DNA from: Methanolobus bombayensis | Lineage (GTDB): Archaea > Halobacteriota > Methanosarcinia > Methanosarcinales > Methanosarcinaceae | Assembly (NCBI RefSeq): GCF_017873415.1 | Contig: NZ_JAGGKD010000002.1 | Coordinates: forward strand, 62,001 to 126,000 | Reading direction: 5' to 3' | Length of the DNA stretch: 64,000 nucleotides | Shown: positions 8,675 to 49,375 of the stretch, one piece after another | How positions within the stretch are numbered: position 1 is the first letter of the stretch | How the letters are laid out: every line of letters starts with the position of its first letter | Program-made: the position numbers and the translations under genes | Notes under the pieces: model-generated | Database searches by the model: none | Told to the model about the DNA's origin: nothing | The model's input: the letters and a program-made list of their open reading frames with translations, nothing else

Positions 8675-10279
8675 TCAGTCTCTGCCCTTCTGTTCATACT
8701 TTTCTTTTATTTCCTTAATAGTTGCCCTTAATTTAGCTCTTTCAAGAGGTAACGACTCTTCCTGTAATTCCATGAAAAGTGCTTTTATCAGGCAGTATAA
8801 CATCAAAAGCATGACAAGCATGAACGGGAAACCACCGATTATAGAAGCTGTTTGAAGAGCCCCCAGACCGCCTGCAAGTAGAAGAACTGCTGCAACGGCT
8901 CCTTCCAGACTACCCCAGATGATCCTGAGTGGAAGTGGTGGATTCGGATTACCTTTTGATGTAAGCATTCCGATAACATAAGTGCCTGAGTCAGAAGAGG
9001 TTATAAAGAATATAGCTACAGAGAACATTGCGACTCCGATAAGTATATCAGAATACGGGAAGAAGCTGAGCATACTGAAAAAGCCCAGTGCGGAATCAAC
9101 TTCCACAGCTTTGGCGATTCCGCCTGCTCCGAAATGTTCAATAAAAAGGGCAGACCCGCCAAAAATGCTGAACCATACCATACTTACAACGGTAGGTGCA
9201 AGCATAACTCCTATTATAAAACTTCTGATAGTTCGTCCTCTTGACACACGGGCGATGAAAGAGCCGACAAAAGGTGCCCATGCAATCCACCATGCCCAGT
9301 AGAAGATCGTCCATGAGTCTCCCCATCCTTCGACACCTACTCCCGCAGGATCAGTTCCGAATGACATCTGCAGCAGGTTCTGCAAATAACCCCCAACAGA
9401 ATGCGTAAAAAGCTCAAGTGTAAATAATGTAGGTCCGAGTACAAATATGAGTATCATTAAAATCAATGCAACTGCAAGATTTATTTGACTCAACCATTTT
9501 ATTCCTCTGTCAATACCTGAACTGGTTGACATCACTGCCAGTATTGTAACTACGGTTATGATTAAAACCCATAATGTAGGTCCGCTCACATATCCGAACA
9601 GTTCTTCAAGTCCTGCTCCAATTTGCATGACACCAAGACCAAGGGTTGTGGCTATACCGAAAAGGGTTGCTAGAACACCGATAGTATTTACTGCAACTCC
9701 CCACTTACCATCGATTCCTTCTCTTCCGAGAATGGGTTCCAGAGTAGAACTCAATAACATAGGTAATCCTTTTCTGTAAGAAAAGTATGCTAGTGATCCG
9801 GCAACAACAGAATATATTGCCCATGGATGGAATCCCCAGTGGAAGAATGAATATCTCATGGCTGCATGCAGGGATTCAGCTGTATTTGGTTGTTCGTAAA
9901 GAGGCCACATATAGTGCCAGATAGGTTCTGAAACACCCCAGAAAAGCAAACCTATCCCCATTCCGCAACTAAAAAGCATGGCAAACCATGAGAGGTCGGA
10001 ATATGCAGGTTTTTCGTAGTCTCCGCCTAATTTGATATCACCAAGCGGACTTAACATCAGGTATATAATCAGTAACAGGAAAATACTTCCACCAAGTAAA
10101 AATGACCATCCGAGATTTCCTACCATCCAGTTAAAAGTATTATCCATATATTGACCAAAACTCTCTGCGTAAAACGTACCTGCAAAAACAAACGCTAAAG
10201 TCAGAAATAACGATACCAATAATGTAGGTGTTTTTAACGTTTCAGAAAATTCAGTAAGTCCTTTTTGCATTTCTCTCAT
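8675..10279 (-). CDS. BCCT-family (betaine/choline/carnitine) transporter
   Basis: A 534-residue secondary transporter with twelve predicted helices. Family signatures include FWGVSEPIWHYMWP, HWGFHPWAIYSVV, and the tryptophan-rich WAWWIAWAPFVGSFIARVSR block that forms the trimethylammonium box and neighbouring helix in glycine-betaine carriers. The C-terminus is short and charged. The substrate is probably a quaternary ammonium compound such as glycine betaine or choline; the exact one is not fixed by sequence. A strong GGAGGT site is six bases upstream of the ATG at 10279. The gene diverges from the MtmB-like methyltransferase gene, suggesting either osmolyte uptake or supply of a methylated amine as methanogenic substrate. 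Confidence 0.92.
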   Translation of the reverse strand: MREMQKGLTEFSETLKTPTLLVSLFLTLAFVFAGTFYAESFGQYMDNTFNWMVGNLGWSFLLGGSIFLLLIIYLMLSPLGDIKLGGDYEKPAYSDLSWFAMLFSCGMGIGLLFWGVSEPIWHYMWPLYEQPNTAESLHAAMRYSFFHWGFHPWAIYSVVAGSLAYFSYRKGLPMLLSSTLEPILGREGIDGKWGVAVNTIGVLATLFGIATTLGLGVMQIGAGLEELFGYVSGPTLWVLIITVVTILAVMSTSSGIDRGIKWLSQINLAVALILMILIFVLGPTLFTLELFTHSVGGYLQNLLQMSFGTDPAGVGVEGWGDSWTIFYWAWWIAWAPFVGSFIARVSRGRTIRSFIIGVMLAPTVVSMVWFSIFGGSALFIEHFGAGGIAKAVEVDSALGFFSMLSFFPYSDILIGVAMFSVAIFFITSSDSGTYVIGMLTSKGNPNPPLPLRIIWGSLEGAVAAVLLLAGGLGALQTASIIGGFPFMLVMLLMLYCLIKALFMELQEESLPLERAKLRATIKEIKEKYEQKGRD

Positions 10280-10756
10280 TCATTTACCTCCAGTTTATAC
10301 TTTGAAAAAAAGTGAGTTTACAATTAAGCAAAAATGCTGCAGGTGAACTACCCTTACCTTTCGTTCTGATCACATGAAAGGGGCTTCCTGTCTTAGAAGT
10401 TAATATAAAGATTTTCATCATTTTAAGAAGATCAAGAAACGATACCCTTGTAAATAACTTCATATCATATCTAATAATAAAAACTCCACTTCAAGTAGCA
10501 TTAATAGAACACGATTGAGATTTATACAATCATTATTCAATTGTTAATCATCAAGCATCTTATTTATTGTCCTATAAATTAAAAACTCTTCTGTTAACAT
10601 CTGTATTTTATTTGTGGTTATATATTATAATGACAGTATATTGTAACTTAGTAATAATATTTGGTTTTTATTACAAATCATATTAACTTATGTATTTTAT
10701 GTTATCAGTTATTGCTATAAGTTAAAAGCTACTAGGAAATATAAGAGGTATCATGT
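10280..10756. promoter_or_regulatory. Long AT-rich divergent control region between the BCCT and MtmB-like genes
   Basis: This 477-bp non-coding stretch has no open frame and is strongly AT-rich. On the plus strand a TATATATTA element (about 10618-10628) is a reasonable TATA box, implying a leader of about 100 bases before the MtmB-like gene; long leaders are known for methylamine methyltransferase mRNAs. A GAGGT ribosome site (10745-10749) sits seven bases before the ATG. The minus-strand side carries the GGAGGT site of the BCCT gene (10286-10291). No clear operator palindrome was identified. The promoter positions are inferred. Confidence 0.45.
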
Positions 10757-12127
10757 ATGTCAGATATATATAAATATTTAAGAAGTTCTTTTTCGGGTGA
10801 AGAGAAAAAAGAAAATGAACACGACATGGATGTTTTCAAAATATCCCGGGAACTTGCTGAGGATTATAACATAATAAACGAAGGGGATTTTGTACCATAT
10901 GATATGGATATGGCAGATGCTGTTTTTTCAGCAGCTATCGAACTTCTGACCACCACCGGGGTTTATTGTACGGATACAGGAAGATCGATACAGGTAAATA
11001 ATGAAGAAGTATTACAGGCTCTCGGAACTCCCAATGCCCTTGAGATTGGAAGGTTTAAAGAAAGAATTGAAGTTGTAAGAAGGTGTGTAATGGATTCTCA
11101 GGCACCTGTAATAATTGGTGGACCAATGGGTGGCAAGATTTCTGAAAAGGATTATCTGAACATACACATAAGTTCTGCAAGTGAACCTATTGTTCAGGGA
11201 ATCTATGGCGGCTCACTTCAAACTTTTAATGAGGATCCCATAAAATTTGACAGCCCTGAGGAAATGTTTGTGTCTTTTGAGGAAGCACGGCTTGAAAGAC
11301 TTGCAACAAAAGTTGCCGGAAGGGAAGGACTTACTCTTATAGGCCCCTCAACTCCGACAGTGTCGCAGGCCTATATGCTAGTATCTTCAAATGAATTATA
11401 CACAAAGAATGATGTTCATAAAACCCATCAACTTGAGAATTTGAAAACAAATTTCGAGACATTCTATAGGGCTATATTCCATCAAGGTAACGGAAATAAT
11501 TATTTTAGTGATCAATGTCCGGTTTTAGGTGAAAAGCACATTGAATCTCCTGAAGCTCTGGCTATTATCGATGTTGCAGAGACCATACAATCCCGCCTGG
11601 TAACAGGTGCGAATCTGCATGCTTCTGGAGCCGTTGATTCAGATACTAAATCGTCATCTTCTAAAGAAATAATATGGTCATCCAATATGGCGTCTCTTGC
11701 CATCTCCCGCAATATGAACCATTGTACTGGAAGATATTACAGGAATCTTGCAGGTTGTTGTACCGACATGATGTTTTATGAAACTGCAGCCCAGGCAATA
11801 GGAGATACGGTTTGTGGAAGAGAAATGTTAATAGGTCCTCTGGGAGGAGGCAGTAAGGGAACTGATATGTCCACTGGTCTTGAGTCAAGATTCATGGGAG
11901 AGGTGAGCAGAATGGCTCTTAATTTAGATCTGGCAGAAGCAAATGAGGTCATTGAAATGCTTTATTCCAAGTACGAGGACAGGCTTTCCGACGCTCCTCA
12001 TGGAAAGGATTTTGAATCATGTTACACTGTCAATTCCAAATATGAAATGAAACCGGATCAACAATATATGGAGCTTTACTCTAAGATTATCGGCGAAATA
12101 GATGAGTACTATAGAAATATGTTCTAA
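10757..12127 (+). CDS. Pyrrolysine-free homologue of monomethylamine methyltransferase MtmB
   Basis: At 456 residues it is almost the length of Methanosarcina MtmB (458). Shared blocks include FVPYDMDM (46-53), GVYCTDTGR (68-76), IIGGPMGGKIS (119-129), SDQCP (251-255), CCTDM (334-338), GREML (354-358) and APHGKDFESCY (413-423), aligned from memory of the M. barkeri protein. MtmB methylates its cognate corrinoid protein with the methyl of monomethylamine, using pyrrolysine 202 encoded by in-frame UAG. Here that position is Ile195 (ATA, 11339-11341). MtmB Glu259, Gln333 and Glu229 correspond to Asp252, Arg326 and Lys222, while Tyr335 is kept as Tyr328. A different substrate or mechanism is likely. 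No corrinoid protein or MtbA gene lies nearby, so these would act in trans. A GAGGT site sets the start. Confidence 0.85.
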   Translation: MSDIYKYLRSSFSGEEKKENEHDMDVFKISRELAEDYNIINEGDFVPYDMDMADAVFSAAIELLTTTGVYCTDTGRSIQVNNEEVLQALGTPNALEIGRFKERIEVVRRCVMDSQAPVIIGGPMGGKISEKDYLNIHISSASEPIVQGIYGGSLQTFNEDPIKFDSPEEMFVSFEEARLERLATKVAGREGLTLIGPSTPTVSQAYMLVSSNELYTKNDVHKTHQLENLKTNFETFYRAIFHQGNGNNYFSDQCPVLGEKHIESPEALAIIDVAETIQSRLVTGANLHASGAVDSDTKSSSSKEIIWSSNMASLAISRNMNHCTGRYYRNLAGCCTDMMFYETAAQAIGDTVCGREMLIGPLGGGSKGTDMSTGLESRFMGEVSRMALNLDLAEANEVIEMLYSKYEDRLSDAPHGKDFESCYTVNSKYEMKPDQQYMELYSKIIGEIDEYYRNMF

Positions 12128-12302: not shown

Positions 12303-12390
12303 ATGTTCGGTTTAAGCTTGTGGACAGACCTTTCACTCGAGAAAGCTGGATGAAGCAGGAAGCCACCCAATTTATTGGCTGGTAGTTCAC
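12303..12390 (+). ncRNA. Solo IS200/IS605-type right end resembling a TnpB omega-RNA
   Basis: The sequence contains the conserved order of an IS605-family right end: a CTTTC-ACTC-GAGAAAG hairpin region, GGATGAAGCAGGAAGCC, an imperfect hairpin (CCACCCAA / TTGGCTGG, 12363-12382) and the terminal TAGTTCAC (12383-12390). In complete elements this stretch is the 3' end of tnpB and becomes the guide-RNA scaffold. No tnpB or tnpA is present, so this is a relic or a solitary element. Its final bases overlap the stop codon of the convergent histidine kinase gene. Identification rests on recalled family features, not on a search. Confidence 0.55.
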
Positions 12391-15300
12391 TTGGTGGTAT
12401 CAACTGGTATTGCAAATGTGAATGTACTTCCCTTACCTACTTCACTTTCCACTTCTATGTCTCCGGAATGCATTTCCACGTAATATTTTACAATAGCAAG
12501 TCCCAGTCCGGTTCCTCCGTGAGTTCGGCTTATCGATGAGCTGATCTGTTTAAAAGGGTCAAAAATAGCTTTATTTTGTTCAGAGGGAATACCGATGCCA
12601 TTATCAGATACAGAAATGTGTACTTTCCCGTTTGCTACTTTAGAATCAACTCTTACTTTACCATGGTCAGGTGTGAACTTGATTGCATTACTTAAGAGAT
12701 TGTATAATATCTGTTTGATTTTTATCCTGTCAGCATTTATTTCAAGACCCTTTAATTCAATATTGGTTTTAAAATCGATATGTTTCTCTTTTATAAGAGG
12801 TTCCATTAGCATTATGCTTTCTTCCAAAACCTCTGACATATTTATTGGTTCAGGGTCGAATACCATGTTGCCTGATTCAATTTTTGAAACATCGAGTATA
12901 TCATTGATAAGGTTCAGCAAATGATTACCACTTTTCAGTATGTTTGAAACATAATGAAGTTGTTTTTCATTAAGTTCTCCAAAAATTTTATCATTTAATA
13001 TCTGGGAAAAACCGATAACTGAATTAAGTGGTGTTCGAAGCTCATGACTCATATTGGCAATGAACTCCGATTTTATCTGGTTTGATTCTTCAGCAAGGGC
13101 TTTAGCTCTTAGAAGGGCCATTTCTGTATTTTTTCGTTCAGTAATGTCTGTTAAAAATAGAGTAAGACCGATGACATTCCCATTCTCATCTTCAAGAGGA
13201 CTATACACGTTCTCGTACCATCGTCTTTCAAGTAATGAATCGCCGTATTCTTCAATAGTGGTAAAAGCTTCGCCTGCCAGTACTCTGTCAAAATTCATTT
13301 TTGATTTTTTTCTGTCTGAAGAATCTGTGATGTAATCAAGCATACAGGTGCCAATATCAATGTCCGCGTTCCATATGTTTTTCATAGTGTTCCGGTGATT
13401 TTCATTAAAAGCAATATACATGTAATTTCTATCAAGGGCGAAAATGATCACATCTTCAGGGCTTTCAATAACTTCATGAAGTAGTTGGTATGCCTGTCTG
13501 TATTTCTGCTCGGCTTGTTTCAATATTTCCGCAGCTCTATTTCTTTCAGTAATGTCTCTGCATATGCAATATGCCAGATTCTGTTCATTTATTATTGCAT
13601 TGTTAGTAGTGACTTCCACATCAAATGAGCTCCCATCTTTACGGAAGTGCTTTGTTTCAAAATGGGTAAATGATTTATCATTAGTTCTAATTACTTCAAT
13701 TAGCTTCTCTTTATTGAATGATCTATCCCAATCCCAAACGTGTAACTGGAGCAATTCATCCATTGGATAGCCAAGCATATCCGCATATTTCTGATTAGCT
13801 TCCACTATTTTTCCATTTTGATCAATGGCAACAATTCCATCGTTTGCCTGCTCGAAGAAAATACGTGTTCTTATGTTCTCTTCTGCAAACCTGGCCTCAG
13901 CTCTTTTTTTCTCAGTTATATCGGCATGAGTTCCATACATAAGAAGTGGTTTTCCCTCTTCGTCCCATTCGATCACTTTTCCACGATCAAGTACCCATAC
14001 CCACTCTCCATTCTTGTGTTGTAAGCGTGCTTCATATTCATAATAATCAAGCTCGCCTTCAAAGTGTTTCCTAAGAAGCATTTCAGCTTCTTTTAAGTCG
14101 TCCGGGTGGGATAATTCTGCCCATGTCTGTATATTGGTTGGAGCTAATTCATCAAGCGTATAACCTACTATCTCTGCCCAGCGTTCATTGAATGAAGTTT
14201 CACCAGTCTGGATATTCCATTTCCATGTCCCGATATTTGTACCTTCAATGATGTTCGCAAGACGTTTGCGCTCTTCTAACAGCTCTTTCTCTGCCTGCTT
14301 CCTTTCGGAAATATTCCTGCCAATTCCCAATACTCCAATGAGTTTTCCACTGGAATCATACATAGGACTTTTAATAGTTTCCAGATATTCTTTGTGTCCG
14401 TCGTCGGCATAAGTGATTAATTCCTCATTCATTGAAGGTTTACCGGCTTCTAATGCCTCCATATCCTTTTGTCTGAAAAAGTCTGCAAGTTCCTTGTCAA
14501 CAAAATTATGATCCGTCTTTCCAATGATTTCTGCTTCTTTTGCACCGAAAAAACGCTCAAATTTACTATTGCATTTAAGGTACATTCCTTCGGGATTCTT
14601 CAGCCATATTAGATCAGGAATAGTATCTACCAGTGTACGTAGTTGTCCCTCACTATTCATTAGTGCTATTTCTGCATTTTTGTGATCAGTTATATTGATG
14701 GATGCTGACATGACCCTCTGAATGCCATTGATCATAACAGGACTCAATCGGACATAAAGCCAAAGATCTTCGCCGTTCTTCTTTTTGTGAAGCCATTCAA
14801 ACTCCTGCGCCCCTCCTGAAACAGTTTTATGTATCAATTCTTGAGCTTCTGCTAGTGAGTATGGATGCTCATACCAGATATCATTCTCCTGTAATTCTTT
14901 GAGTGAAGAAAAGCCAAAAGAAGTATAAGCTGCAGGATTAGCGTCAATTATATCCCCACTGTCCTTATCGTGTATTATTGTGGAAATGGGTATTTCTGTG
15001 AAAAGACTTCTGTACTGCTCTTCACTGTTCTGGAGTTTCTCTTCATATATCTCTTCAGAGTTTTTTGTCCCTGTAAGGTCACGAATAATAGAACAAAGAA
15101 GGGTTTTTTCTCCGATGCTGGTAGGAAAGGTATTTACTTCGACATCTCGTATTTCACCACTAGCAATTTGATGTTTGAAGAAAAAGTGATTTTTTATCTC
15201 ATTCATTGCCTTTTGGACCGCTGCTGAGACTTCCTCTTCAGGCATTGAATTTATGTGAAAGATCTTCTTACCTATAAACTCCTCTAACTTCCAGCCATAA

Positions 15301-15416
15301 AATTCACATGCAGCATGGTTTGCATCAACGATATCAAGGGTATCAGGATCTATAAGTAACATAATGACATGTGCGTTGTCAAATAATGTCCTGTACCCGG
15401 TTTCCTTAATTCCCAC
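12387..15416 (-). CDS. Soluble multi-PAS sensor histidine kinase (six PAS domains)
   Basis: A 1009-residue kinase without membrane segments. Six PAS domains follow one another (about 1-120, 132-250, 256-380, 384-508, 511-635, 640-765); several end in the usual DITE(R/K) PAC motif. The dimerisation/phosphoacceptor domain has the H-box [16 protein letters not shown] (about 780-795) and the ATPase domain has [16 protein letters not shown] and [11 protein letters not shown]. It should autophosphorylate in response to cytosolic redox, light or ligand signals; no ligand can be assigned. There is no receiver domain and no adjacent response regulator. A GTG start is supported by GAGGA six bases upstream. 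It shares its upstream region with the divergent APC permease genes. Confidence 0.93.
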
Positions 15417-18279: not shown

Positions 18280-18531
18280 TTATTCAACAGGGATCACAAA
18301 TGCAAAAGTGTTCCCTTTTGCGGGTTTGCTCTGACCCAGATATTGCCTTTGTGCATTTCAACATATTTTTTGACAATTGCAAGACCAAGCCCGATTCCAC
18401 CCTGCTCTCTGATACTGTACTTACTTATTTGTTAAAAAGGTTCAAAAAGACAGGCTTTGTTCTCACTGGAGATTCCAATTCCGTTGTCCTTGACACTTGT
18501 GTGGATTATATCAAATTTAATCCGTTTGTTC
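18280..18531 (-). pseudogene. Remnant of a histidine kinase ATPase domain (C-terminal end only)
   Basis: Read on the minus strand, the sequence encodes the last 80 or so residues of a kinase: KDNGIGISSENKACLFEPF, then a TAA at 18434-18432 where other kinases have Lys, then QISKYSIREQGGIGLGLAIV and KKYVEMHKGNIWV. A one-base frameshift near the end separates this from the proper terminus GNTFAFVIPVE and its stop (18282-18280). It starts in a frame overlapping the tail of the intact kinase gene upstream. It is best explained as the leftover of a deleted tandem kinase copy. Confidence 0.88.
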
Positions 18532-21171
18532 AATATTTATATTATCATATTCAGGTTCTTTCGGAATCCTAAAAACAAAACTACTTCCTTCTCCGGGATT
18601 ACTCTGAACACTGATACTGCCTCCATGCATTTCAATGAATTTTTTAGCAATAGCCAGTCCCAGTCCGCTTCCTTTAAAATCATGATTTAAACATGGTTTG
18701 ATCTGCCTGAAAGGCTGGAAAAGTTTATCCATATCATTCAGTGAAATCCCTATACCTGTGTCCTGTATATTAAGATATACTGAACTGTCCACTGTACCTG
18801 CTTCAATTGTAACTTTTCCATTCTCCGGAGTAAACTTAATGGCATTACTTGCAAGATTGTAGATAATTTCCTTGAATTTAGTCCTGTCAGCAAATATCAT
18901 CTCTGGCAGAGAATTATATTTAAGTTCAAGGTCTACTCCTTTTTTCATGGCCATTGGCGTCACTGACATTTTTATTTCGTTGATGCTATCTGAAAGGTTG
19001 AATTTTTCATAGTTGAGTTCCACTCTTCCGGCTTCTATCTTTGAAAGGTCCAGAATATCATTGATTACATTCAGGAGGTGTTTTCCACTTTTTGAAATAT
19101 AATCTATATATTCAGTCTGTGCTTCATTTATTTCTCCGAAATCCCCTCCCTTTATAATTTCTGAAAATCCGATGATGGAATTAAGGGGAGTCCTTAGTTC
19201 ATGACTCATGGTTGCGAGGAATTCATTTTTGGCTAAGCTTGCCTCTTCTGCAGTGATCTTAGCTTTCAGCAGTTCATCCGAATATTTTTTCCTTTCAGTA
19301 ATATCTCTGCAGACACAAAACACGAGTTTTTTGCCACTATATGCCATAAGATTTGAGTTGATTTCAACATTAAGGATAGTTCCATCTTTACATTTCTGTT
19401 TTGTCTCAAACAATATACCCTGGAAATCTGAAGATTGGATCATATTGAGAAGATGGTCGCGGTCAAAATTAGCATCCCAATCCCACACATACATATTTTG
19501 AATTTCGCTGACAGTATATCCAAGCATTTCAGCAAAAGCCGGATTTGTCTCAAAGACACTTCCATCCATTTCCAGTATGACCATTCCATCCCTTGACTGT
19601 TCCATTAGAAGACGGCGCCAGTGAACTTCTTCAGAAAGTGCATTCTCCGATTTCAGGCGTTCAGAAATATCTTTAATGATGGCACAGTTATATTCTTCCT
19701 CTCCATAGATCATGTGATTGACAGAAATTTCGACAGGTAGCAATCTTTTTTCTTTTGTCAGATGCATGGAATGGAAAGTAAAACTCTTTTTTTCTGTGAC
19801 TAGTTTCCAGTGTTCATTCCACATATCTTCTGTGAAAACCGGATCAATATCCGGTACTGACATGGTCAAAAGTTCTTCTTTTGAATAGCCCAGCAAATCA
19901 CAGGCCGATTTGTTGGCAAAAAAGAATTCTCCGGTTTTCCTTGTCCAGAATACGGCATCGCTGAAATTCTCCAGTGAAAAACAAGCAAGATTCAATCCTT
20001 TTTCAGTCTTTTTACGTTCGGTTAGATCCCTTATGAAAGTACAGTCGTACTCTTTACCTTCATAATTCATGTAGTTGGAAATTATTTCAACAGGGCACAT
20101 TTCACCTGAATTAGTGCGAACATCAACTTCTGCAAGTGATGTCTTTTCATTACATAGTTTTTCCCAGTGTTCTTTCCATGATTCCTGTGTAAGTTCAGGA
20201 TCAAAGCTGAATACTGACATCGACAGCATTTCATCTTTAGAATAACCTGTTAGATCACACGCAGCTTTGTTAACATAAAATACATTTCCATTTTTCTCTA
20301 ACCATGCGACAGCATCCTTAGAATTTTCAAGTGAGTGACTTGCTTTTTTTAATTCTTCTTCTGCATTCTTCCTTTTCGTTATATTCCTGAAAAAAGTGCA
20401 GTGATATTCTTCTCCTTTGTAGTTCAGATAATTGACCGTTATTTCTACAGGCAGGATATTTCCAGATTTGGTGCGGACACTGGACTCATTAAAATATGTT
20501 TTGTTTGATCTCACATTTATCCAGTGTTCATCCCACATGGATGAAGTAAAATTTGGATTCACATCTGATACAGACATTGATAGTAGTTCTTCTTCAGTAT
20601 AACCAAGAAGGTTGCATGCGGCTTTGTTGACATAAAACATTTGTCCGTTTGATTTAACCCAGACTACCGGATCAAAAGCATTCTCAAGTGCAAAAAATGC
20701 CAGATGCAGATCTTTTTCAGTTCTTTTCTGTTCAGTTACATCACGAACCACGACATAATTCACATCTTTTTCTTTTTTAAGTGGGTCACTCCTGTAAATC
20801 TTTACATCGCGAACTTCACCACTTGAAAGCATGTGTTTTGAAAAAAAGTAATTTTTATCACCTGCATTCTTGCATTCAATGGAACTATTTTCCTTTCCTT
20901 TCCTTGATTCCATAATTACGGCATCTATATCACTGATATCCATTTTCTTCAGTTCTTCCAGTGACCATCCATAAAATTCAGAAGCAGTATGATTTGCATC
21001 AATGATCTTGCAAGTACTCTGGTCAATTAACAGTACCACTGTTCTGTCATTCTGAAAAAGGTCCCTGTAGGTTTCTTCATTTTTGAGAAAATAGTCTATC
21101 AAAGTTTCTTCATAGCAAAAGAGAGATGAATTATCTCCGGTCTGCTCCCAATGATACCTTTTTTTTCCCAT
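18517..21171 (-). CDS. Soluble multi-PAS sensor histidine kinase with a triplicated PAS unit
   Basis: An 884-residue cytosolic kinase: five PAS domains (about 25-150, 156-275, 276-395, 396-515, 520-640), H-box [16 protein letters not shown] (about 657-672), then an ATPase domain with NLASNAIKF, DTGIGIS and GSGLGLAIAKK. The second to fourth PAS domains are clear repeats of one another, each with the pattern SLEN-DAV-W, NK(A/S)ACDL-GY and PVEI--N---Y-GEEY. The final dozen residues (EYDNINIEQTD) are atypical and overlap the neighbouring kinase remnant in another frame, suggesting that the end was formed by recombination. No receiver domain or partner is present. Confidence 0.92.
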   Translation of the reverse strand: MGKKRYHWEQTGDNSSLFCYEETLIDYFLKNEETYRDLFQNDRTVVLLIDQSTCKIIDANHTASEFYGWSLEELKKMDISDIDAVIMESRKGKENSSIECKNAGDKNYFFSKHMLSSGEVRDVKIYRSDPLKKEKDVNYVVVRDVTEQKRTEKDLHLAFFALENAFDPVVWVKSNGQMFYVNKAACNLLGYTEEELLSMSVSDVNPNFTSSMWDEHWINVRSNKTYFNESSVRTKSGNILPVEITVNYLNYKGEEYHCTFFRNITKRKNAEEELKKASHSLENSKDAVAWLEKNGNVFYVNKAACDLTGYSKDEMLSMSVFSFDPELTQESWKEHWEKLCNEKTSLAEVDVRTNSGEMCPVEIISNYMNYEGKEYDCTFIRDLTERKKTEKGLNLACFSLENFSDAVFWTRKTGEFFFANKSACDLLGYSKEELLTMSVPDIDPVFTEDMWNEHWKLVTEKKSFTFHSMHLTKEKRLLPVEISVNHMIYGEEEYNCAIIKDISERLKSENALSEEVHWRRLLMEQSRDGMVILEMDGSVFETNPAFAEMLGYTVSEIQNMYVWDWDANFDRDHLLNMIQSSDFQGILFETKQKCKDGTILNVEINSNLMAYSGKKLVFCVCRDITERKKYSDELLKAKITAEEASLAKNEFLATMSHELRTPLNSIIGFSEIIKGGDFGEINEAQTEYIDYISKSGKHLLNVINDILDLSKIEAGRVELNYEKFNLSDSINEIKMSVTPMAMKKGVDLELKYNSLPEMIFADRTKFKEIIYNLASNAIKFTPENGKVTIEAGTVDSSVYLNIQDTGIGISLNDMDKLFQPFRQIKPCLNHDFKGSGLGLAIAKKFIEMHGGSISVQSNPGEGSSFVFRIPKEPEYDNINIEQTD

Positions 21172-21427: not shown

Positions 21428-24055
21428 TCAAAGAGCTTTTTTCAGTGTGATCCAGAACACACTTCCCTTTCCTTCAGGATTGTCCTCAACACCATATTCT
21501 CCATCATGCAGTTCGATTATACGTTTTACAATAGCAAGGCCTAATCCAGTTCCCTTTATTCCTTTTTTATCTGCACGCTGGAAACGGTTAAAGAGCAGGA
21601 CTTTATCGGAATCAGAGATTCCTGCTCCCCGGTCTGTAACAGTGACTTTCCACATCCTGTCAAGCTCTTTGAAAGTTATATCAATGGCACTTCTTAAAGG
21701 GCTGTATTTGATAGCATTTGACAATAGATTTGCAAAAACCTCTTCTATGATCGGATTAGCTACAGCAGGACAGGCACTAATTCCATATATATTCACTGTC
21801 TGATCATTTGTTTCTATTGTTTCCCTGAAACTATCAATGACCATTTTAAACACAGGTACCACGTCTATCTTTTCAAAACCAATGTCCTCTTCTTTCTGGA
21901 GTTTTGCAAGCTTGGTGGCAGTTTCAAGCATCTCTATCAATCTGTCATTGTTTTCCTTGACTTTCTGTGCCAGCATCCTTGATTGTTCATCGCTTGTTGT
22001 GTCAAGAAGTTCTTCTGTGTAACCTTTGACAACACTGGCCGGAGTGAGCAGATCGTGACGTATGATATCGGTGAACAGGTCTTTAAGTTCGTTTGATTTT
22101 TTGAGTTCAGATGCATATCTTTTTAGTCTTTCTTCAGCTTTCTTTCTCTCAGTGATGTTCCTGGCTACAGAAAGAATGGCCTTTTCGCCTTTGTATTCTA
22201 TAAGTCTGGAATTGAGTTCAAGCGGAAGCACGGATCCGTCTCTAAGCACAAAACTGATCTCAAAAATAACGCCTTTTTCCTTCATTATGCGTTCTGTGTA
22301 ACTATCCATCAGTAGTTTCATTTCAGGTTTTACAATATCATCAGGAGACATTTCAAGCATTTCTTCCCTTGTGTAACCAGTTGAAGAGACCATAGCTCTG
22401 TTCGCATCTATAAAATTACCATAAGGACTGCAGATATATATGAGGTCGTCAACGTTATTGAATACTGTTTTAAGGTTGTTCTCGGACTCGATCAGCATTG
22501 ATTCCATTCTTCTGTTTTCGGTTATGTCCTCACCTGAGCTGATAACTCCAATACGTTTACCGTTCTCATCTTCAACAGGAACATCATGCCAGAATATCAG
22601 TCTTTCTTCTCCATCTTTTGTAAGTATAAAGTTCTCAAAATATTGTGGGGGATCTAATTCGTGGTTAATAACCTTAACAAAATTACTTTTTGTTAGATCT
22701 CGGACACTTTCAGGAAGGAAATTATCAAACCATTTCTTTCCTATTATTTCGTCTTTATCATATCCGAGGACTTCAGCTCCTTTATTGTTAACGAAGATTA
22801 CTTCCTGATCGGGATTTACAATACCTATTATAGAACCTGCCACATCAAGATAATTGTAGAGTTTATCCCTTTCTATTTTAAGAAGCTCTTCAGTACGTTT
22901 TCTTTGGCTTATATCCCTTATTATGAGAAGTTCTGCCTTCTTTCCTTCATAATCGATAAGCGAGCCATTGATCTCAACAGAAATATTTTCATTTTCCCGG
23001 GTTGTTATATTCATGTCAAAGATTTTTTTGTCAGCTACTTTTAAGCTGCATAGTTTCATCCATTCTGAAGCTTTTTGTTCATCATTTGAAGGGCTGAATT
23101 TCATATAATTCTGGTTGACAATCTCTTCAAGGGTGTAACCTGTGAGTTCGGACATCTTTGAATTTGCAAATTTTATTATCCCGTCCTGAATTATCAGAAC
23201 TCCGTCATTTCCTTTTTCCACAATTGTTGAGTATTTCTTTTCGGATTCCAGAAGTTCCTGTTCGACAATTTTTGTTTCAGATATGTCTTTTCCCACGCAG
23301 ATAAACATGTCATTGTTGTCATCATCCAGAGGCTTGCATGTTATATTCATAGGAACTTTTTCCCCGTTCCTGCACAAATGCTCTAACTCACATTCAGAAC
23401 GTCCTTTTTTAGCTGCTTCTTCTATTATAGAAGGGATTTCATTATTGGTGACACACTGGTTAATGAGTTCTGATATGTTCATTTTGTGAAGCTCGTCAGA
23501 TGAGTGTCCTGTACAGGTTTCAAAATTAACATTAAAATCAACTATGTTTCCTTTATTGTCAACCATGAAAATGTAATCTTCAAGTTTATTGTAACAATCC
23601 CTCAGTTTTCTTTCAAAGGTTTTAAGTTCTACTATTTCTTCCCTTTTTTCAAAAGCAAGCGTTACAAGCTTTGTTATCATTCCAAGTATTTTTTCGTATT
23701 CTTCAATTCTGGTCCTGTTATCATGAACATCAGGTTGCAGTCCTTTGAGGCTAAGCTCTATAAACCCATTATTTTTTCCATTAATAACAATATCATTAAC
23801 AAGTACCATATCATGGTTAGCACAAGCCGAATATTTGCATTCTTTTCCAAGTAATCCGATCTTGATCGATACAAATTCCGGTCCATTAAAAAGATATTTG
23901 ACCCTGTCTGTAAGCAACTTCAGGGATTTTTCTAAAGTTGGTTCATTTAATAAAACTTCAAAGACATTCGTAACGTTGGTAATTACGCTTTCGTTATTTT
24001 TTGTATATCCATTCATCTCCCATTTTCCCCATGAGCGAACAAATGGCAGGTGCAT
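21428..24055 (-). CDS. Soluble sensor histidine kinase with N-terminal GAF-like and four PAS domains
   Basis: An 875-residue kinase. The first 140 residues look like a degenerate GAF-type domain. Four PAS domains follow (about 150-265, 270-390, 395-520, 525-645) with PAC endings such as DISQRKR and NITERKKAEE. The phosphoacceptor helix is RHDLLTPASVVKGY, the less common HDLLTP form, and the ATPase domain has [18 protein letters not shown] and [12 protein letters not shown]. This catalytic core belongs to a different subgroup from the SHELRTP kinases around it. The start is uncertain: the frame opens at 24055, but the ATG at 24016 (MNGYTKN) is a plausible alternative. Confidence 0.9.
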   Translation of the reverse strand: MHLPFVRSWGKWEMNGYTKNNESVITNVTNVFEVLLNEPTLEKSLKLLTDRVKYLFNGPEFVSIKIGLLGKECKYSACANHDMVLVNDIVINGKNNGFIELSLKGLQPDVHDNRTRIEEYEKILGMITKLVTLAFEKREEIVELKTFERKLRDCYNKLEDYIFMVDNKGNIVDFNVNFETCTGHSSDELHKMNISELINQCVTNNEIPSIIEEAAKKGRSECELEHLCRNGEKVPMNITCKPLDDDNNDMFICVGKDISETKIVEQELLESEKKYSTIVEKGNDGVLIIQDGIIKFANSKMSELTGYTLEEIVNQNYMKFSPSNDEQKASEWMKLCSLKVADKKIFDMNITTRENENISVEINGSLIDYEGKKAELLIIRDISQRKRTEELLKIERDKLYNYLDVAGSIIGIVNPDQEVIFVNNKGAEVLGYDKDEIIGKKWFDNFLPESVRDLTKSNFVKVINHELDPPQYFENFILTKDGEERLIFWHDVPVEDENGKRIGVISSGEDITENRRMESMLIESENNLKTVFNNVDDLIYICSPYGNFIDANRAMVSSTGYTREEMLEMSPDDIVKPEMKLLMDSYTERIMKEKGVIFEISFVLRDGSVLPLELNSRLIEYKGEKAILSVARNITERKKAEERLKRYASELKKSNELKDLFTDIIRHDLLTPASVVKGYTEELLDTTSDEQSRMLAQKVKENNDRLIEMLETATKLAKLQKEEDIGFEKIDVVPVFKMVIDSFRETIETNDQTVNIYGISACPAVANPIIEEVFANLLSNAIKYSPLRSAIDITFKELDRMWKVTVTDRGAGISDSDKVLLFNRFQRADKKGIKGTGLGLAIVKRIIELHDGEYGVEDNPEGKGSVFWITLKKAL

Positions 24056-29199: not shown

Positions 29200-30852
29200 G
29201 TGTTAGGTAATGATAACATAAATGAAACTACTGATTTTGAATCGATGGACATTCCCGATTCTGTAAAAAGGGAATTGTTCCAGAAAACAGCTCTTCTGTC
29301 GGGTTTACTCCGCTGGGTTCCGGATCTTGTTTTTTTTAAAGATTCAGATGGTGTTTTTCTTTCATGCAATGAAATGTTTTCAACATATGTTGGCAAGCCC
29401 ACGAGTGAAATAATAGGCAAAACAAGTCATGATATATTTGACAGAGGTAGAGCTGATTTTTTCCGGTCCAATGACAGAAGAGTACTGGAATCCGGTCACT
29501 CTTACAAAAGTGTTGAATGGATGGATCGTGCGGATGGTAAGAAAATCCTGCTCGAAACATTTAAAGCTCCGCTTTTCACTGAAGAAAATGAGATTATCGG
29601 TGTAGTGGGTGTTGGGCGTGACATAACCCAGCGAAAGCTTGCTGAGACTGAATTACAGGACAAAAAGAATGAATTGTTCCAGATAGTTAATGGCAGCCCA
29701 ATATCTGCTTTTGTTATCAACAAGGACCATGAGATAATATACTGGAATAAGGCATGCGAAAAGACAACAGGTGTCAAGGCTAATGATATTATAGGTACAA
29801 GGGACACATGGATGGCTTTCTACAACGAAAAAAGGCAGGTACTTGCAGACTTGATAATTGATAATTCTCTGAGTGGGATCGAACAGGTATATGGTGATAA
29901 AAAACTGCAACCTTCCTTTGTGGAAGGTGGCTATGAAGCTGAAGACTACTTCCCTGCACTTGACAAATGGATACTTTTTACTGCTGCTCCCATAAGGGAT
30001 CATAACAACGATATAATAGGCGCAATAGAAACCCTTCAGGACATTACTCTCTCAAAAAAGGCTGAACAGGCAATCCTTGATGCGAAAATGCTGGCAGAGA
30101 ACACTTCACGCACAAAGAGTGAGTTCCTTTGTAATATGAACCACGAACTTCGTACACCCCTTAATCTTATACTGGGCTATGCCGATCTGCTGTTGACAGA
30201 AGAAACAGGAGAATTGAATGAAGAACAAAAACACTTTGCTGAGATCATCAAATTTGCAGGATCCAGATTCATCGAACTTGTTGATTCTTTGATATATATA
30301 GCTGAGATAGAAGAGGGGAAAATGGAGCTGGATATTGATCTGTTCTCCCTGCCCAACCTCATATCTAATATCAACAAGGTACTTAGTTCACATGCACTAA
30401 AAAAAAGTGTAAAACTGGAATTTGATATCGATCCATCGATTAAAGTTATCTATGCCGATAAATCCAAGATAAAGACAATTTTGCATCATTTGATCAGTAA
30501 TGCTATAAAATTCACTCCTTCAGGTGGAAAAGTTTCAGTTTCCGCCACTCAGGATGATAAAAATGAACTACATTTGATAGTGAAAGATAACGGGATTGGC
30601 ATATCCGATGAAGATCAGGAGCAATTGTACAATGCATTCGTGCAACTTGACTGGTCCCTTAATCGCAAATTCGAAGGAACAGGACTTGGTCTGAGCATAG
30701 TGAAAAAATTTGTCGAAGTTCAGGGTGGCAGGATATGCCTTGAAAGCAAGCCTGGCGAAGGAAGCATATTTGAAGTCATATTACCTATGTTATCTTCGGA
30801 AAGTTCCACTGTCCTTGAGGATATATGTAACAGCACTGAATTTTCAGAATGA
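29200..30852 (+). CDS. Soluble PAS-PAS sensor histidine kinase
   Basis: A 550-residue cytosolic kinase with two PAS domains (about 25-150, ending DITQRK, and 155-285, ending DITLSKKAE), an H-box [17 protein letters not shown], and an ATPase domain with [18 protein letters not shown] and GTGLGLSIVKK. The first PAS is of the PAS_4 type (WVPDLVFFKDSDGVFLSCN). It starts with GTG, supported by an AGGGG site nine bases upstream. No receiver domain is attached. It is convergent with the JAMM-protein gene. Confidence 0.92.
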   Translation: MLGNDNINETTDFESMDIPDSVKRELFQKTALLSGLLRWVPDLVFFKDSDGVFLSCNEMFSTYVGKPTSEIIGKTSHDIFDRGRADFFRSNDRRVLESGHSYKSVEWMDRADGKKILLETFKAPLFTEENEIIGVVGVGRDITQRKLAETELQDKKNELFQIVNGSPISAFVINKDHEIIYWNKACEKTTGVKANDIIGTRDTWMAFYNEKRQVLADLIIDNSLSGIEQVYGDKKLQPSFVEGGYEAEDYFPALDKWILFTAAPIRDHNNDIIGAIETLQDITLSKKAEQAILDAKMLAENTSRTKSEFLCNMNHELRTPLNLILGYADLLLTEETGELNEEQKHFAEIIKFAGSRFIELVDSLIYIAEIEEGKMELDIDLFSLPNLISNINKVLSSHALKKSVKLEFDIDPSIKVIYADKSKIKTILHHLISNAIKFTPSGGKVSVSATQDDKNELHLIVKDNGIGISDEDQEQLYNAFVQLDWSLNRKFEGTGLGLSIVKKFVEVQGGRICLESKPGEGSIFEVILPMLSSESSTVLEDICNSTEFSE

Positions 30853-31318: not shown

Positions 31319-33076
31319 CTATTGATCGCATTTATTTTTAGGGTCAGCAGGGAGGGATATGTGGACATCGGTTCCTTTTCCCTTAGTAGATTCGATCCAG
31401 ATTCTGCCATTATGGGCATCGACAACTTTTTTTGCAATATGGAGTCCAAGACCGTTACCTCCGTATCTGCGGGTTGAAGATCCATCTACCTGATAAAATA
31501 TATCAAAAATATTTTCAAGTTTATCATCAGGTATTCCTATTCCTGAATCCTTTACCACTATATGTACACCGTGGTCTTCTTCCTCTGCCATAACAGTAAC
31601 TTCTCCGTTTTCCGGTGAAAATTTGATGGCGTTATCAATCAGTTTGTAAAGCAGCTGGGGAAGGAAATAAACATCACCATTGATCATCGGAAGTTTTCCG
31701 TTTATTTTTTTATTCAAGAATATTTTGTTTTTTGTAGCTTCAAAGTGATGATGCTTCAATGCATTGTCAATTACGTTTTCCATCTGTATGGGATCAAATT
31801 GATAACAAGTTTTACCGGCAAGAACACTTGCCATATAAAGCAATGAATCAATAAGGGTACCCAGTTTTCTGGAACTATTGAATATTGAGTTAGCCGATTT
31901 TTTTTGTTTTATATTCAATGATCCTAATTGTTCTTCATTAAGTATCTCACTGTATCCAAGGATAGAATTAAGCGGAGTTCTAAGCTCATGACTTAGATTT
32001 GATATGAATTCATACTTCATCATTTCCATGGATTTCAGTTCATCATAAGCTATAATGAGCTTTTTATTACGTTCAGTTAACTTATCCTGTGCCTCTTTTT
32101 CCCCAATGGCACTACCTATTATATTTGCAACTGCTCCAAGTACAGTCACATCTTCCATGCTCCATTTACCGGTGGCTTTTACATTATCAAGACCAATAAA
32201 TCCGTTCACTTTCCCTGCAACGTATACCGGCAACACAAGAACTGAAGTAATGTCCTGCATTTCCAGTATCTCTTTTTCTGCAGCTGCTTCCGGAGGCAGT
32301 TCCGACACTTCTTTTATATGGATTATCTCACCATTTTCGAGTTTTTTCATCCACCAGGGGAACATGTCCTGGGGTAGATCCTGAAGATTATCTTTTTGAG
32401 CTTCAACCTCTCCTTGGGCCCATTCATGCGTATTGCTCATAGTATCATTTTCATCGTCGAAGCGGAAAAGATAAGCACGACTGGCACCACATACAGTACC
32501 TGTTTTTCCAAGGCATTCTTCTATCACATTATCTAAATTTTCAGGTGCAACAAGAGCCGAGGAAACAAAAGAGATTGCACGTTCTATCTCCAGTTTTCTA
32601 TGTAAAAGGATACTTGAACCATTATCATCCAAATTTGAACAAAAATCTTTTCTGTCAAAGGAAAAACTGAGATCTTCCACATACCACGCAATTGAAATCT
32701 GACTGGCATCGTTAAGTTGAACATTAACTTTTTTGCATCTGATATCTTTTTCAATATTCAGTTTTGTGTTCCATTTGCAGTTAAAGATCTGTCCGTTTTC
32801 TTTTTCATCATTTTTTCCCGGAATTTCTGTGTCACTATGGTTACAGCAAAAGATATCATCCATAGATGATCCATATATCTCCTCTATGGTGAATCCTGTG
32901 ATTTTTGTAAATTCCGGGTTACAGTATTGAATATACATTTCCCTGTCTGTCAGCAAAACACCCAGCGGGAGTTCCTTGTATAGTCGGATATAATCAGTAT
33001 CACAAAGAAAGTTGTCATTCCTTTCAATATCATACAAACCTTCTGATACCATTGAATTTTTTCCCTTGCAGTGCAT
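31319..33076 (-). CDS. Soluble PAS-GAF sensor histidine kinase
   Basis: A 585-residue cytosolic kinase. A PAS domain (about 25-145) is followed by a GAF domain (about 165-325) with the motifs SRAYLFRFDDE, SNTHEWAQGEVEAQ and GFIGLDNV, a coiled linker, the H-box [17 protein letters not shown] and an ATPase domain with KLIDNAIKFSP, DSGIGIP and GGNGLGLHIAKK. The GAF domain is closely related to the first GAF of the membrane kinase at 49.4-52.2 kb, so the two may sense the same type of signal. A GAGGAG site lies just before the ATG. There is no receiver domain. Confidence 0.92.
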   Translation of the reverse strand: MHCKGKNSMVSEGLYDIERNDNFLCDTDYIRLYKELPLGVLLTDREMYIQYCNPEFTKITGFTIEEIYGSSMDDIFCCNHSDTEIPGKNDEKENGQIFNCKWNTKLNIEKDIRCKKVNVQLNDASQISIAWYVEDLSFSFDRKDFCSNLDDNGSSILLHRKLEIERAISFVSSALVAPENLDNVIEECLGKTGTVCGASRAYLFRFDDENDTMSNTHEWAQGEVEAQKDNLQDLPQDMFPWWMKKLENGEIIHIKEVSELPPEAAAEKEILEMQDITSVLVLPVYVAGKVNGFIGLDNVKATGKWSMEDVTVLGAVANIIGSAIGEKEAQDKLTERNKKLIIAYDELKSMEMMKYEFISNLSHELRTPLNSILGYSEILNEEQLGSLNIKQKKSANSIFNSSRKLGTLIDSLLYMASVLAGKTCYQFDPIQMENVIDNALKHHHFEATKNKIFLNKKINGKLPMINGDVYFLPQLLYKLIDNAIKFSPENGEVTVMAEEEDHGVHIVVKDSGIGIPDDKLENIFDIFYQVDGSSTRRYGGNGLGLHIAKKVVDAHNGRIWIESTKGKGTDVHISLPADPKNKCDQ

Positions 33077-47440: not shown

Positions 47441-49375
47441 ATGCATTTCGGTCTTGGAATAGATGCTGGCGGAACATATACGGATGCAGTGCTCATAAGA
47501 GGTTCAGACGGTGCGATAGTTGATTCTAAAAAAGCTTTCACCACATATCCTGATCTCCAGGAAGGTATAAAGAACGTGCTGGATTCACTTGATCAGGAAC
47601 TTCTTAAAAACGTGAATCTTGTCTCAGTTTCCACAACACTTTCCACAAATTCGTTACTTGAAGGAACTGGAACTTCAGTTGCTCTTATCATTATAGGTGA
47701 AAAACCTGCTCAAACCGAATTCCCCTCTGAATATATGATATGCGTGCAGGGTGGACATGACACCAGAGGTGACCAGTTCAGTGAACTTGATGTGGGCGCT
47801 GTTGAGGATTTCATCCGCAGCACAAAAAGGCAGGTTTCTGCTTATGCGGTTTCCGGATATTTTGGTGTAAGAAATCCTGAGCATGAACTTCAGGTGAAAG
47901 AAATTATCACAAATATGACCGAAATGCCGGTTGTGTGTGGTCATGAGCTTTCACAGGAACTCGGTGCCTATGAAAGAGCTGTAACTGCTATCCTCAATGC
48001 CCAGCTTATCCCTATCACTCACCAGTTTGTAAGTTCTGTTGTAAAAGATGTCCGTGAACGTGGAATTGATGCACGTCTTCTGATGCTCAAATGTGATGGT
48101 TCGGTTTACAATATAGAGGATGCACTGGAAAAACCAATAGAAACGATATTCTCGGGTCCTGCTGCCAGCTTGCTTGGTGCATCCTATCTTTCAAAAATGG
48201 AAACATGTGCTGTTATTGATATTGGGGGAACCAGCACTGATGTTTCAATGATTCACAACGGAGTGCCTGAGATAAGCAGCTCCGGTGCTGTTGTAGGTGG
48301 ATGGAAGACCCGTGTAAGAGCTATGAAAATGGAAACCTCTGCAACAGGAGGTGACAGTCACATATGGGTTCAGGATTCACAAGTACATGTGGGACCCAGA
48401 AGAGTTCTTCCACTATGTGTTGCTTCCACAATGTATCCTGATCTTCTGAACAAGCTCAAAAGAAACAGGGTTGTTTCAAGAAATTTAATGGATGAGAATT
48501 TCCAGCCTACCAAATTCTTTGTCAGAACAGCCTATGAAGCTTTTGATCTTAAAGCTGATGCACGTCGACTCCTATCAATGATCGGTAGTGAACCTGTGTC
48601 AGTTTCCGAGATTAATTCTGCTCTTCGAAAGAATATTCCTTCTGATGTTCTGAATTCTCTTATACAAAAAAGGCTTGTACAGGGAATAGGTTTCACACCC
48701 ACGGATGCTTTGCACGTTCTTGGTATCTATGATAAATGGAATGTACAGGCTTCAGAGATAGGTGCCATGAATCTCGCACGCTATACTACAAAGGGAAAAT
48801 ACGATCTTTGTACTTATGTGAGGGAGCTTGTGGCAAAGAACATGGCAGCAGATCTTATGTCCTATATTCTTCCACATCATCCACCGGAGATGATCGCTGA
48901 CCTGCTTGACAATGAATATCCTGCAAAATTCAAGGTTGAGCTTCCTGTAGTGCTTCTTGGAGGTCCTTCAAGAGCTTATGACAGTGAACTTAGTTCTCTT
49001 ATTGATGCCGAAGTAGTGGTTCCTGAATTTGCAGATGTTGGAAATGCAGTTGGAGCACTTGCAGGTAAAGGTGTCAAAAGAATAGAGATCATGATAAGGC
49101 CCGCATCTCTGGAAAATCCGGATGAGGATTTCCTTGTGTTTTCTCCTGTTAGTAGAGAGCGTTTCAAAAGTTACGGGGATGCAGTTGAATTTGCAACAAA
49201 TGTCGGTAACGAGCTGGTACTTGATTATGAAATGCGTTGTGGGATCTTAAAACAGGATACTAAAGTGACAGTATCAAAGAAAACCGTGTCTCCAGATAAC
49301 TGGTCTCATCCACCACTGGAAACAAAAGTGATAGTTGTGGGTATTGGCAACCCAATGATGATATTGAAGGAATGA
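47441..49375 (+). CDS. Hydantoinase/oxoprolinase-A family protein (HyuA-like)
   Basis: A 644-residue ATPase-type protein. The N-terminal domain starts GLGIDAGGTYTDAVLI (phosphate 1 motif), and the central domain has AVIDIGGTSTDVSMIHNG plus ETSATGGDSHIWV. HyuA proteins use ATP to open cyclic amides or to phosphorylate substrates of carboxylase complexes. No HyuB-like partner or carboxylase subunit is adjacent, and such stand-alone HyuA proteins are common in methanogens without known function. It is convergent with the membrane histidine kinase, twelve bases apart. Confidence 0.85.
   Translation: MHFGLGIDAGGTYTDAVLIRGSDGAIVDSKKAFTTYPDLQEGIKNVLDSLDQELLKNVNLVSVSTTLSTNSLLEGTGTSVALIIIGEKPAQTEFPSEYMICVQGGHDTRGDQFSELDVGAVEDFIRSTKRQVSAYAVSGYFGVRNPEHELQVKEIITNMTEMPVVCGHELSQELGAYERAVTAILNAQLIPITHQFVSSVVKDVRERGIDARLLMLKCDGSVYNIEDALEKPIETIFSGPAASLLGASYLSKMETCAVIDIGGTSTDVSMIHNGVPEISSSGAVVGGWKTRVRAMKMETSATGGDSHIWVQDSQVHVGPRRVLPLCVASTMYPDLLNKLKRNRVVSRNLMDENFQPTKFFVRTAYEAFDLKADARRLLSMIGSEPVSVSEINSALRKNIPSDVLNSLIQKRLVQGIGFTPTDALHVLGIYDKWNVQASEIGAMNLARYTTKGKYDLCTYVRELVAKNMAADLMSYILPHHPPEMIADLLDNEYPAKFKVELPVVLLGGPSRAYDSELSSLIDAEVVVPEFADVGNAVGALAGKGVKRIEIMIRPASLENPDEDFLVFSPVSRERFKSYGDAVEFATNVGNELVLDYEMRCGILKQDTKVTVSKKTVSPDNWSHPPLETKVIVVGIGNPMMILKE

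Follow-up and report, generated by a model that had tools for sequence, protein, structure and literature searches.

Among the pyrrolysine (Pyl)-free homologs of the methyltransferase MtmB, function has so far been demonstrated for one, MtqB of Methanococcoides methylutens Q3c, whose gene adjoins that of the corrinoid protein MtqC and which demethylates tetramethylammonium and choline, and methylamine weakly (PMC13044021, March 2026). The tree of 1,061 sequences in the same study includes many other Pyl-free MtmBs, to which no function is assigned; the view taken in an earlier, sequence-only reading of the locus described here, that a Pyl-free MtmB equivalent is little described, is thereby superseded. 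The existence of such proteins, one of them with a function, is already known. What is new is a separate branch, represented by the protein that we call P0001, together with its head-to-head pairing with a special BCCT-family transporter in six of eight genomes, the matching distribution of that transporter, and an MtqC-like corrinoid protein, adjoining a group I paralog in the same genome, as the best candidate partner. P0001 is a real, intact and selected Pyl-free MtmB that belongs to a distinct clade and has a conserved transporter partner. Its clade is the second, phylogenetically distinct group of Pyl-free MtmBs for which a functional clue, in this case genomic, is available.

The gene and its active site

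The window, a 64-kb stretch of DNA (C2:62001-126000 of genome G000, that of a salt-adapted methanogenic archaeon), contains the following features, given in window positions:

8675..10279, minus strand: BCCT-family transporter, 534 aa, divergent partner of P0001 (PF02028, 610 bits; aromatic motifs)
10280..10756, no strand: divergent intergenic region, 477 bp (six orthologous intergenic regions aligned)
10757..12127, plus strand: Pyl-free MtmB-family methyltransferase P0001, 456 aa (PF05369, 460 bits; AlphaFold pLDDT 93.7; TM 0.95 to 1l2q)
11339..11341, plus strand: codon ATA, Ile195, at the position of MtmB Pyl202 (alignments, sequence)
11420..11422, plus strand: Lys222, opposite MtmB Glu229 (alignment)
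11510..11512, plus strand: Asp252, opposite MtmB Glu259; Gly, Ser or Cys in the closest relatives (alignment)
11732..11737, plus strand: Arg326-Tyr327, opposite MtmB Asn332-Gln333 (ungapped alignment SGNQYY/TGRYYR)

The assignment of this 456-aa ORF to the MtmB family, made in the sequence-only reading, is borne out by a near full-length PF05369 match (profile positions 2-448 of 450, against a curated cut-off of 25 bits) and by an E-value of 2e-68 against M. barkeri MtmB in the PDB. PF05369 is the sole family found in a Pfam scan of P0001, which gave no PF06253 match, and the predicted fold, from an AlphaFold model built on 34 aligned homologs, superposes far better on MtmB (1l2q) than on MttB/MtgB (TM 0.55). 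Membership in the MttB family, which the earlier reading also disfavored, is rejected on this evidence. The gene is under purifying selection: dN/dS is 0.06-0.09 among Methanohalophilus orthologs, for which dS is unsaturated, and about 0.06-0.11 for orthologs against the window gene, where dS is saturated. Because seven orthologs are also without the TAG and dN/dS lies at 0.06-0.09, a chance intact frame, an assembly error or simple decay can be set aside, the last as had been argued from the sequence. It is also conceivable that P0001 is a non-catalytic or regulatory paralog, for instance one that senses or sequesters the BCCT substrate; pocket residues vary (I/V/L/F at 195, K/E at 222), and no corrinoid gene adjoins it. 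Strong purifying selection and an MtmB fold that is modeled as intact at high confidence nevertheless make such a role very unlikely.

P0001 departs from MtmB proper at four pocket positions, with Ile195 for Pyl202 and Lys222, Asp252 and Tyr327 for Glu229, Glu259 and Gln333. Ile195 faces Pyl202 of 1l2q, in a column that holds an in-frame TAG in 38 of the 38 Pyl-MtmB sequences aligned; this substitution, and that of Glu259 by Asp252, had been recognized correctly by comparison with the M. barkeri protein. The replacement of Glu229 by Lys222 stands as an alignment but not as a trait of the group, since Lys is confined to the window protein and two close relatives (G122/G128) and nearly all other non-Pyl relatives keep Glu. 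The pairing of Gln333 with Arg326 was one position off: Gln333 faces Tyr327 (codon 11735-11737), and Arg326 (codon 11732-11734) faces Asn332. The supposed loss of Pyl is likewise not established; because the tree described below has no root, with Pyl-MtmB as one group among four, the direction of change cannot be claimed.

These replacements bear on the possibility that P0001 is a Pyl-independent methyltransferase for monomethylamine or another simple methylamine, or a back-up for MtmB. Such a role would fit the low methylamine activity of MtqB (PMC13044021), the position of a sister group (L004 type) next to Pyl-mtmB in many Methanolobus genomes, and the incomplete Pyl-mtmB copies of one carrier genome, G109 (see below). 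However, the replacement of Glu259 and Gln333, the two intact Pyl-mtmB genes of the window genome, and a BCCT partner better suited to quaternary or tertiary amines leave it quite improbable. A substrate different from that of MtmB, as the sequence-only reading suggested, is probable.

Phylogeny and distribution

PF05369 genes occur in 98 of the 186 genomes of the order, and the window genome has five, two with the TAG and three without. Beside one clade of Pyl-MtmB, the trees recover three Pyl-free groups (I, II, and III). Within group I, P0001 and seven orthologs (67-75% identity) form a clade with 100/100 support, comprising sequences from Methanohalophilus (G106, G108, G109), Methanosalsum (G146, G147), and Methanolobus-type MAGs (G122, G128); some of these genus labels are presumed. 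Most of the carriers belong to halophilic genera (Methanohalophilus, Methanosalsum). Across 393 sampled genomes of the phylum, matches of at least 48% identity are confined to the window's own family; two named records outside the family, of uncertain placement (L075, L076), contain group I relatives at 48-49%.

Group II includes sequences from Methanosarcina, G092, and others, several of them beside or near Pyl mttB/mtbB clusters (L095, L094, L093, L096, L126). Group III, from Methanococcoides and Methanosarcina, has its gene directly downstream of a corrinoid gene. We infer that group III is the MtqB group, from the MtqC-MtqB gene order, the taxonomic spread, a position close to Pyl-MtmB in the tree, and conservation of a CMCP-like (Met-Cys) motif; group II (Methanosarcina/G092 C3) was dropped from consideration as the MtqB group, the MtqC-MtqB order having been found in group III. 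P0001 is about 30% identical to group III, and an AU test rejects its grouping there (p 0.0004), a result that extends to MtqB to the degree that MtqB is correctly placed in that group. P0001 therefore belongs to a functionally uncharacterized group. That it might be an MtqB ortholog, a tetramethylammonium/choline methyltransferase under another name, would accord with the shared family, the shared absence of Pyl, and the chance that MtqC-like corrinoid proteins serve both. But gene order, occurrence in Methanococcoides and Methanosarcina, branching, and the Met-Cys motif all put MtqB in group III, and, as far as this placement goes, the AU test leads us to reject orthology, which we consider extremely unlikely. 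In the neighborhood of the P0001 locus, mtqC is absent from the position directly upstream.

In Methanohalophilus G109, both Pyl-mtmB copies (L251:1937-2938, L252:1327-2148) are without roughly residues 23-171, part of the N-terminal barrel, which may reflect either a true deletion or an assembly fault. The sole full-length MtmB-family gene of this genome is its Pyl-free P0001 ortholog.

The divergent BCCT transporter

The strongest functional clue is the BCCT gene that lies head-to-head with P0001, which the sequence-only reading missed. This arrangement recurs in six of the eight genomes with a P0001-type gene (the window genome, G106, G108, G109, G122, and G128), and the outer neighbors of the pair fall into three unrelated chromosomal settings; in the window it is flanked by genes for a DMT-type transporter and for a sensor kinase, and in G122/G128 by ribosomal-protein/TruB clusters. 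The Methanosalsum ortholog adjoins an OFA/MFS transporter, with the BCCT gene elsewhere in the genome. In the six-region alignment, a block adjoining mtmB (TATCAGTTATTGnTATAAG..., then AGAGGT) is common to the relatives and is likely the mtmB promoter and ribosome-binding site. Six or more proteins resembling sensor kinases are encoded in the 64-kb window, and PAS domains are repeated in several of them (12387-15416, 18517-21171, 21428-24055, 29200-30852, 31319-33076, and 49387-52158).

Of 112 genomes of the family, 10 have this special type of BCCT (72-92% identity): seven of the eight P0001 carriers versus three of 104 others (Fisher p 2.6e-8, from counts that are not phylogeny-corrected). 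The one carrier without it is a 72%-complete MAG, and the genomes that have it without a P0001 ortholog are Methanosalsum G145 and Methanohalobium G103/G104. Within genera, it is present in 3/3 carriers versus 0/5 non-carriers of Methanohalophilus, and in 3/3 versus 0/24 of Methanolobus. The ordinary BCCT (about 48% identity) is encoded by a different gene, which is widespread and which the window genome has as well. The window BCCT shares 92% identity with the Methanohalophilus proteins and about 80% with their counterparts in G122/G128, whose genus code is that of the window; because it is closer to Methanohalophilus than to its own genus, the sequence comparison suggests that the BCCT-mtmB pair has moved laterally.

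The window BCCT carries the HWGFHPWAIY and WAWWIAW motifs of the betaine-type aromatic box. Among solved structures it is closest to the trimethylamine transporter 8zw8 and to BetP; the top match is no different for the ordinary BCCT, so the nearest structure is uninformative as to substrate. The pairing has precedents in which a BCCT gene adjoins another kind of Pyl-free methyltransferase gene, namely BCCT-MttB(non-Pyl)-corrinoid operons (G096, G100, G137) and a BCCT beside a group II MtmB (G079). Pyl-free MttB, and hence MtgB, is absent from the window genome.

Candidate corrinoid partners

Neighborhoods at eight orthologous loci hold no corrinoid gene adjoining the P0001 clade, and therefore no adjacent mtmC. 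A divergent corrinoid protein, here termed CorA (57% or more identical), is found in ten genomes, all of which hold group I genes of the P0001/Methanococcoides type (p 1.1e-8); this co-distribution is with the wider group I, not with the P0001 clade alone. In the window genome, CorA (C2:361199-361849) directly precedes a group I paralog at C2:361885. Of the Methanohalophilus species, the three with a P0001 ortholog have CorA (in G106 at C1:1977381-1978034) and the five without one lack it, G107 among the latter having a more distant relative (44%). Methanosalsum, G122, and G128 yielded no CorA. In the corrinoid tree, CorA groups with MtqC-like proteins in a single clade (99/99), separately from MtmC, MtbC, and MttC. 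Because of this placement and the co-distribution with group I, CorA is the best candidate for a partner acting in trans. A second divergent corrinoid protein (k0, found with a URO-D protein) was rejected as partner for its mismatched distribution, being present in G110 and undetected in G106 and G147.

Other genes recur in these neighborhoods. DUF1638 proteins adjoin corrinoid genes; in Methanohalophilus the DUF1638 gene comes after CorA, and in the window genome the protein is fused to a histidine kinase (L204:10054-10857; L212:11285-12973). Group I non-Pyl mtmB genes of Methanococcoides and G107 cluster with Orc1/Cdc6-like and Hydantoinase_A-like genes (L087, L088, L089, L092, L136), and in the window genome an Orc1/Cdc6-like gene is divergent to the CorA-mtmB pair (L084). 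A Hydantoinase_A-like protein in the window (47441-49375, plus strand) is 54% identical to a Methanococcoides protein clustered with group I mtmB, and other such proteins lie near Pyl methylamine genes in the window genome; it is possible that the window protein is a corrinoid-methyltransferase accessory protein.

Proposed function

Given the observed family, predicted fold, absent Pyl, and purifying selection, together with a BCCT gene that is a conserved neighbor and shares its distribution, we propose that P0001 may be a Pyl-independent, corrinoid-dependent TIM-barrel methyltransferase for a BCCT-imported quaternary amine, in which catalysis, substrate class, and partner are the conjectural elements. 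This is the most likely of the readings considered, at about even odds. The divergent BCCT would import a betaine-, choline-, or tetramethylammonium-like solute, a quaternary, positively charged N-methyl compound whose methyl group is already activated. As such a methyl group is already transferable, a Pyl adduct would be unnecessary, which could account for a hydrophobic residue in place of Pyl and a rebuilt pocket. This pocket, hydrophobic at 195 and aromatic at 327, would hold the delivered substrate. Co(I) of an MtqC-like corrinoid protein would accept the methyl group from P0001, and MtbA would transfer it on to coenzyme M; the gene for this corrinoid protein would lie elsewhere, its best representative in the window genome being G000:C2:361199-361849. 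The reading is supported by the activity of the Pyl-free homolog MtqB on tetramethylammonium and choline (PMC13044021). Counted against it are the lack of an adjacent corrinoid gene, the gaps in CorA distribution noted above, and the OFA/MFS rather than BCCT neighbor in Methanosalsum.

The main obstacle to a role in growth on quaternary amines is physiological. Neither choline nor betaine supports growth of M. mahii (PMC3017947), and M. portucalensis FDF1 is described as using methanol and methylamines only (PMC4928046). G108, which carries both the BCCT-mtmB pair and CorA, is very probably M. mahii, as the locations of its two BCCT genes match those of Mmah_0372 and Mmah_1398. This growth range implies that the substrate may be another quaternary amine, or that the role may lie in osmolyte turnover, in which P0001, when external salinity falls, would demethylate a compatible solute such as glycine betaine that has been taken up or stored, or would salvage methyl groups from it. 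The mostly halophilic carriers, the BCCT partner, the M. mahii phenotype, and the synthesis and accumulation of betaine by Methanohalophilus are consistent with turnover; however, no osmoregulatory gene was found adjoining P0001, and the ordinary BCCT is a separate gene. We regard turnover in place of growth as unlikely.

More tentatively, the BCCT-MtmB pair could be a mobile quaternary-amine module of halophilic methanogens, in which a third Pyl-free MtmB branch either uses a substrate other than choline and betaine or consumes a compatible solute in adjusting turgor; this is possible, though doubtful. If so, compatible-solute use would couple osmoregulation directly to methyl transfer and methanogenesis. 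With a dedicated BCCT and a candidate MtqC-like corrinoid protein, the role of a Pyl-free MtmB and the dispensability of Pyl become testable in cultured Methanohalophilus. If quaternary-amine methyl transfer by P0001 is borne out, there would be an unrecognized way for quaternary amines to be converted directly to methane in saline environments, or for osmolytes to be turned over there.

Comparison with known systems

P0001 resembles MtmB (PDB 1NTH/1L2Q; PF05369) in family, length, and fold, and probably in corrinoid-dependent methyl transfer. It differs in sequence (30% identity), in having no Pyl, in the replacement of Glu259 and Gln333, and in a gene that lies beside a BCCT transporter instead of MtmC. 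With the glycine betaine methyltransferase MtgB, of the MttB superfamily, it has in common a Pyl-free, putatively corrinoid-dependent character, and the Pyl-free MttB-type genes of Methanococcoides and Methanolobus also adjoin a BCCT; MtgB, however, belongs to PF06253, and its structural similarity to P0001 is low. The group I non-Pyl MtmBs of Methanococcoides, Methanolobus, and Methanohalobium form one supported clade with P0001, at 53-61% identity, but have different neighbors, either Orc1/Cdc6-like and Hydantoinase_A genes or Pyl-mtmB. MtqB falls in the inferred group III, a separate deep clade from the group I of P0001, and adjoins a corrinoid gene, whereas P0001 adjoins a BCCT gene. Yet both are Pyl-free members of the MtmB family, and P0001, like MtqB, has an MtqC-like corrinoid protein as candidate partner and likely acts on a quaternary amine.
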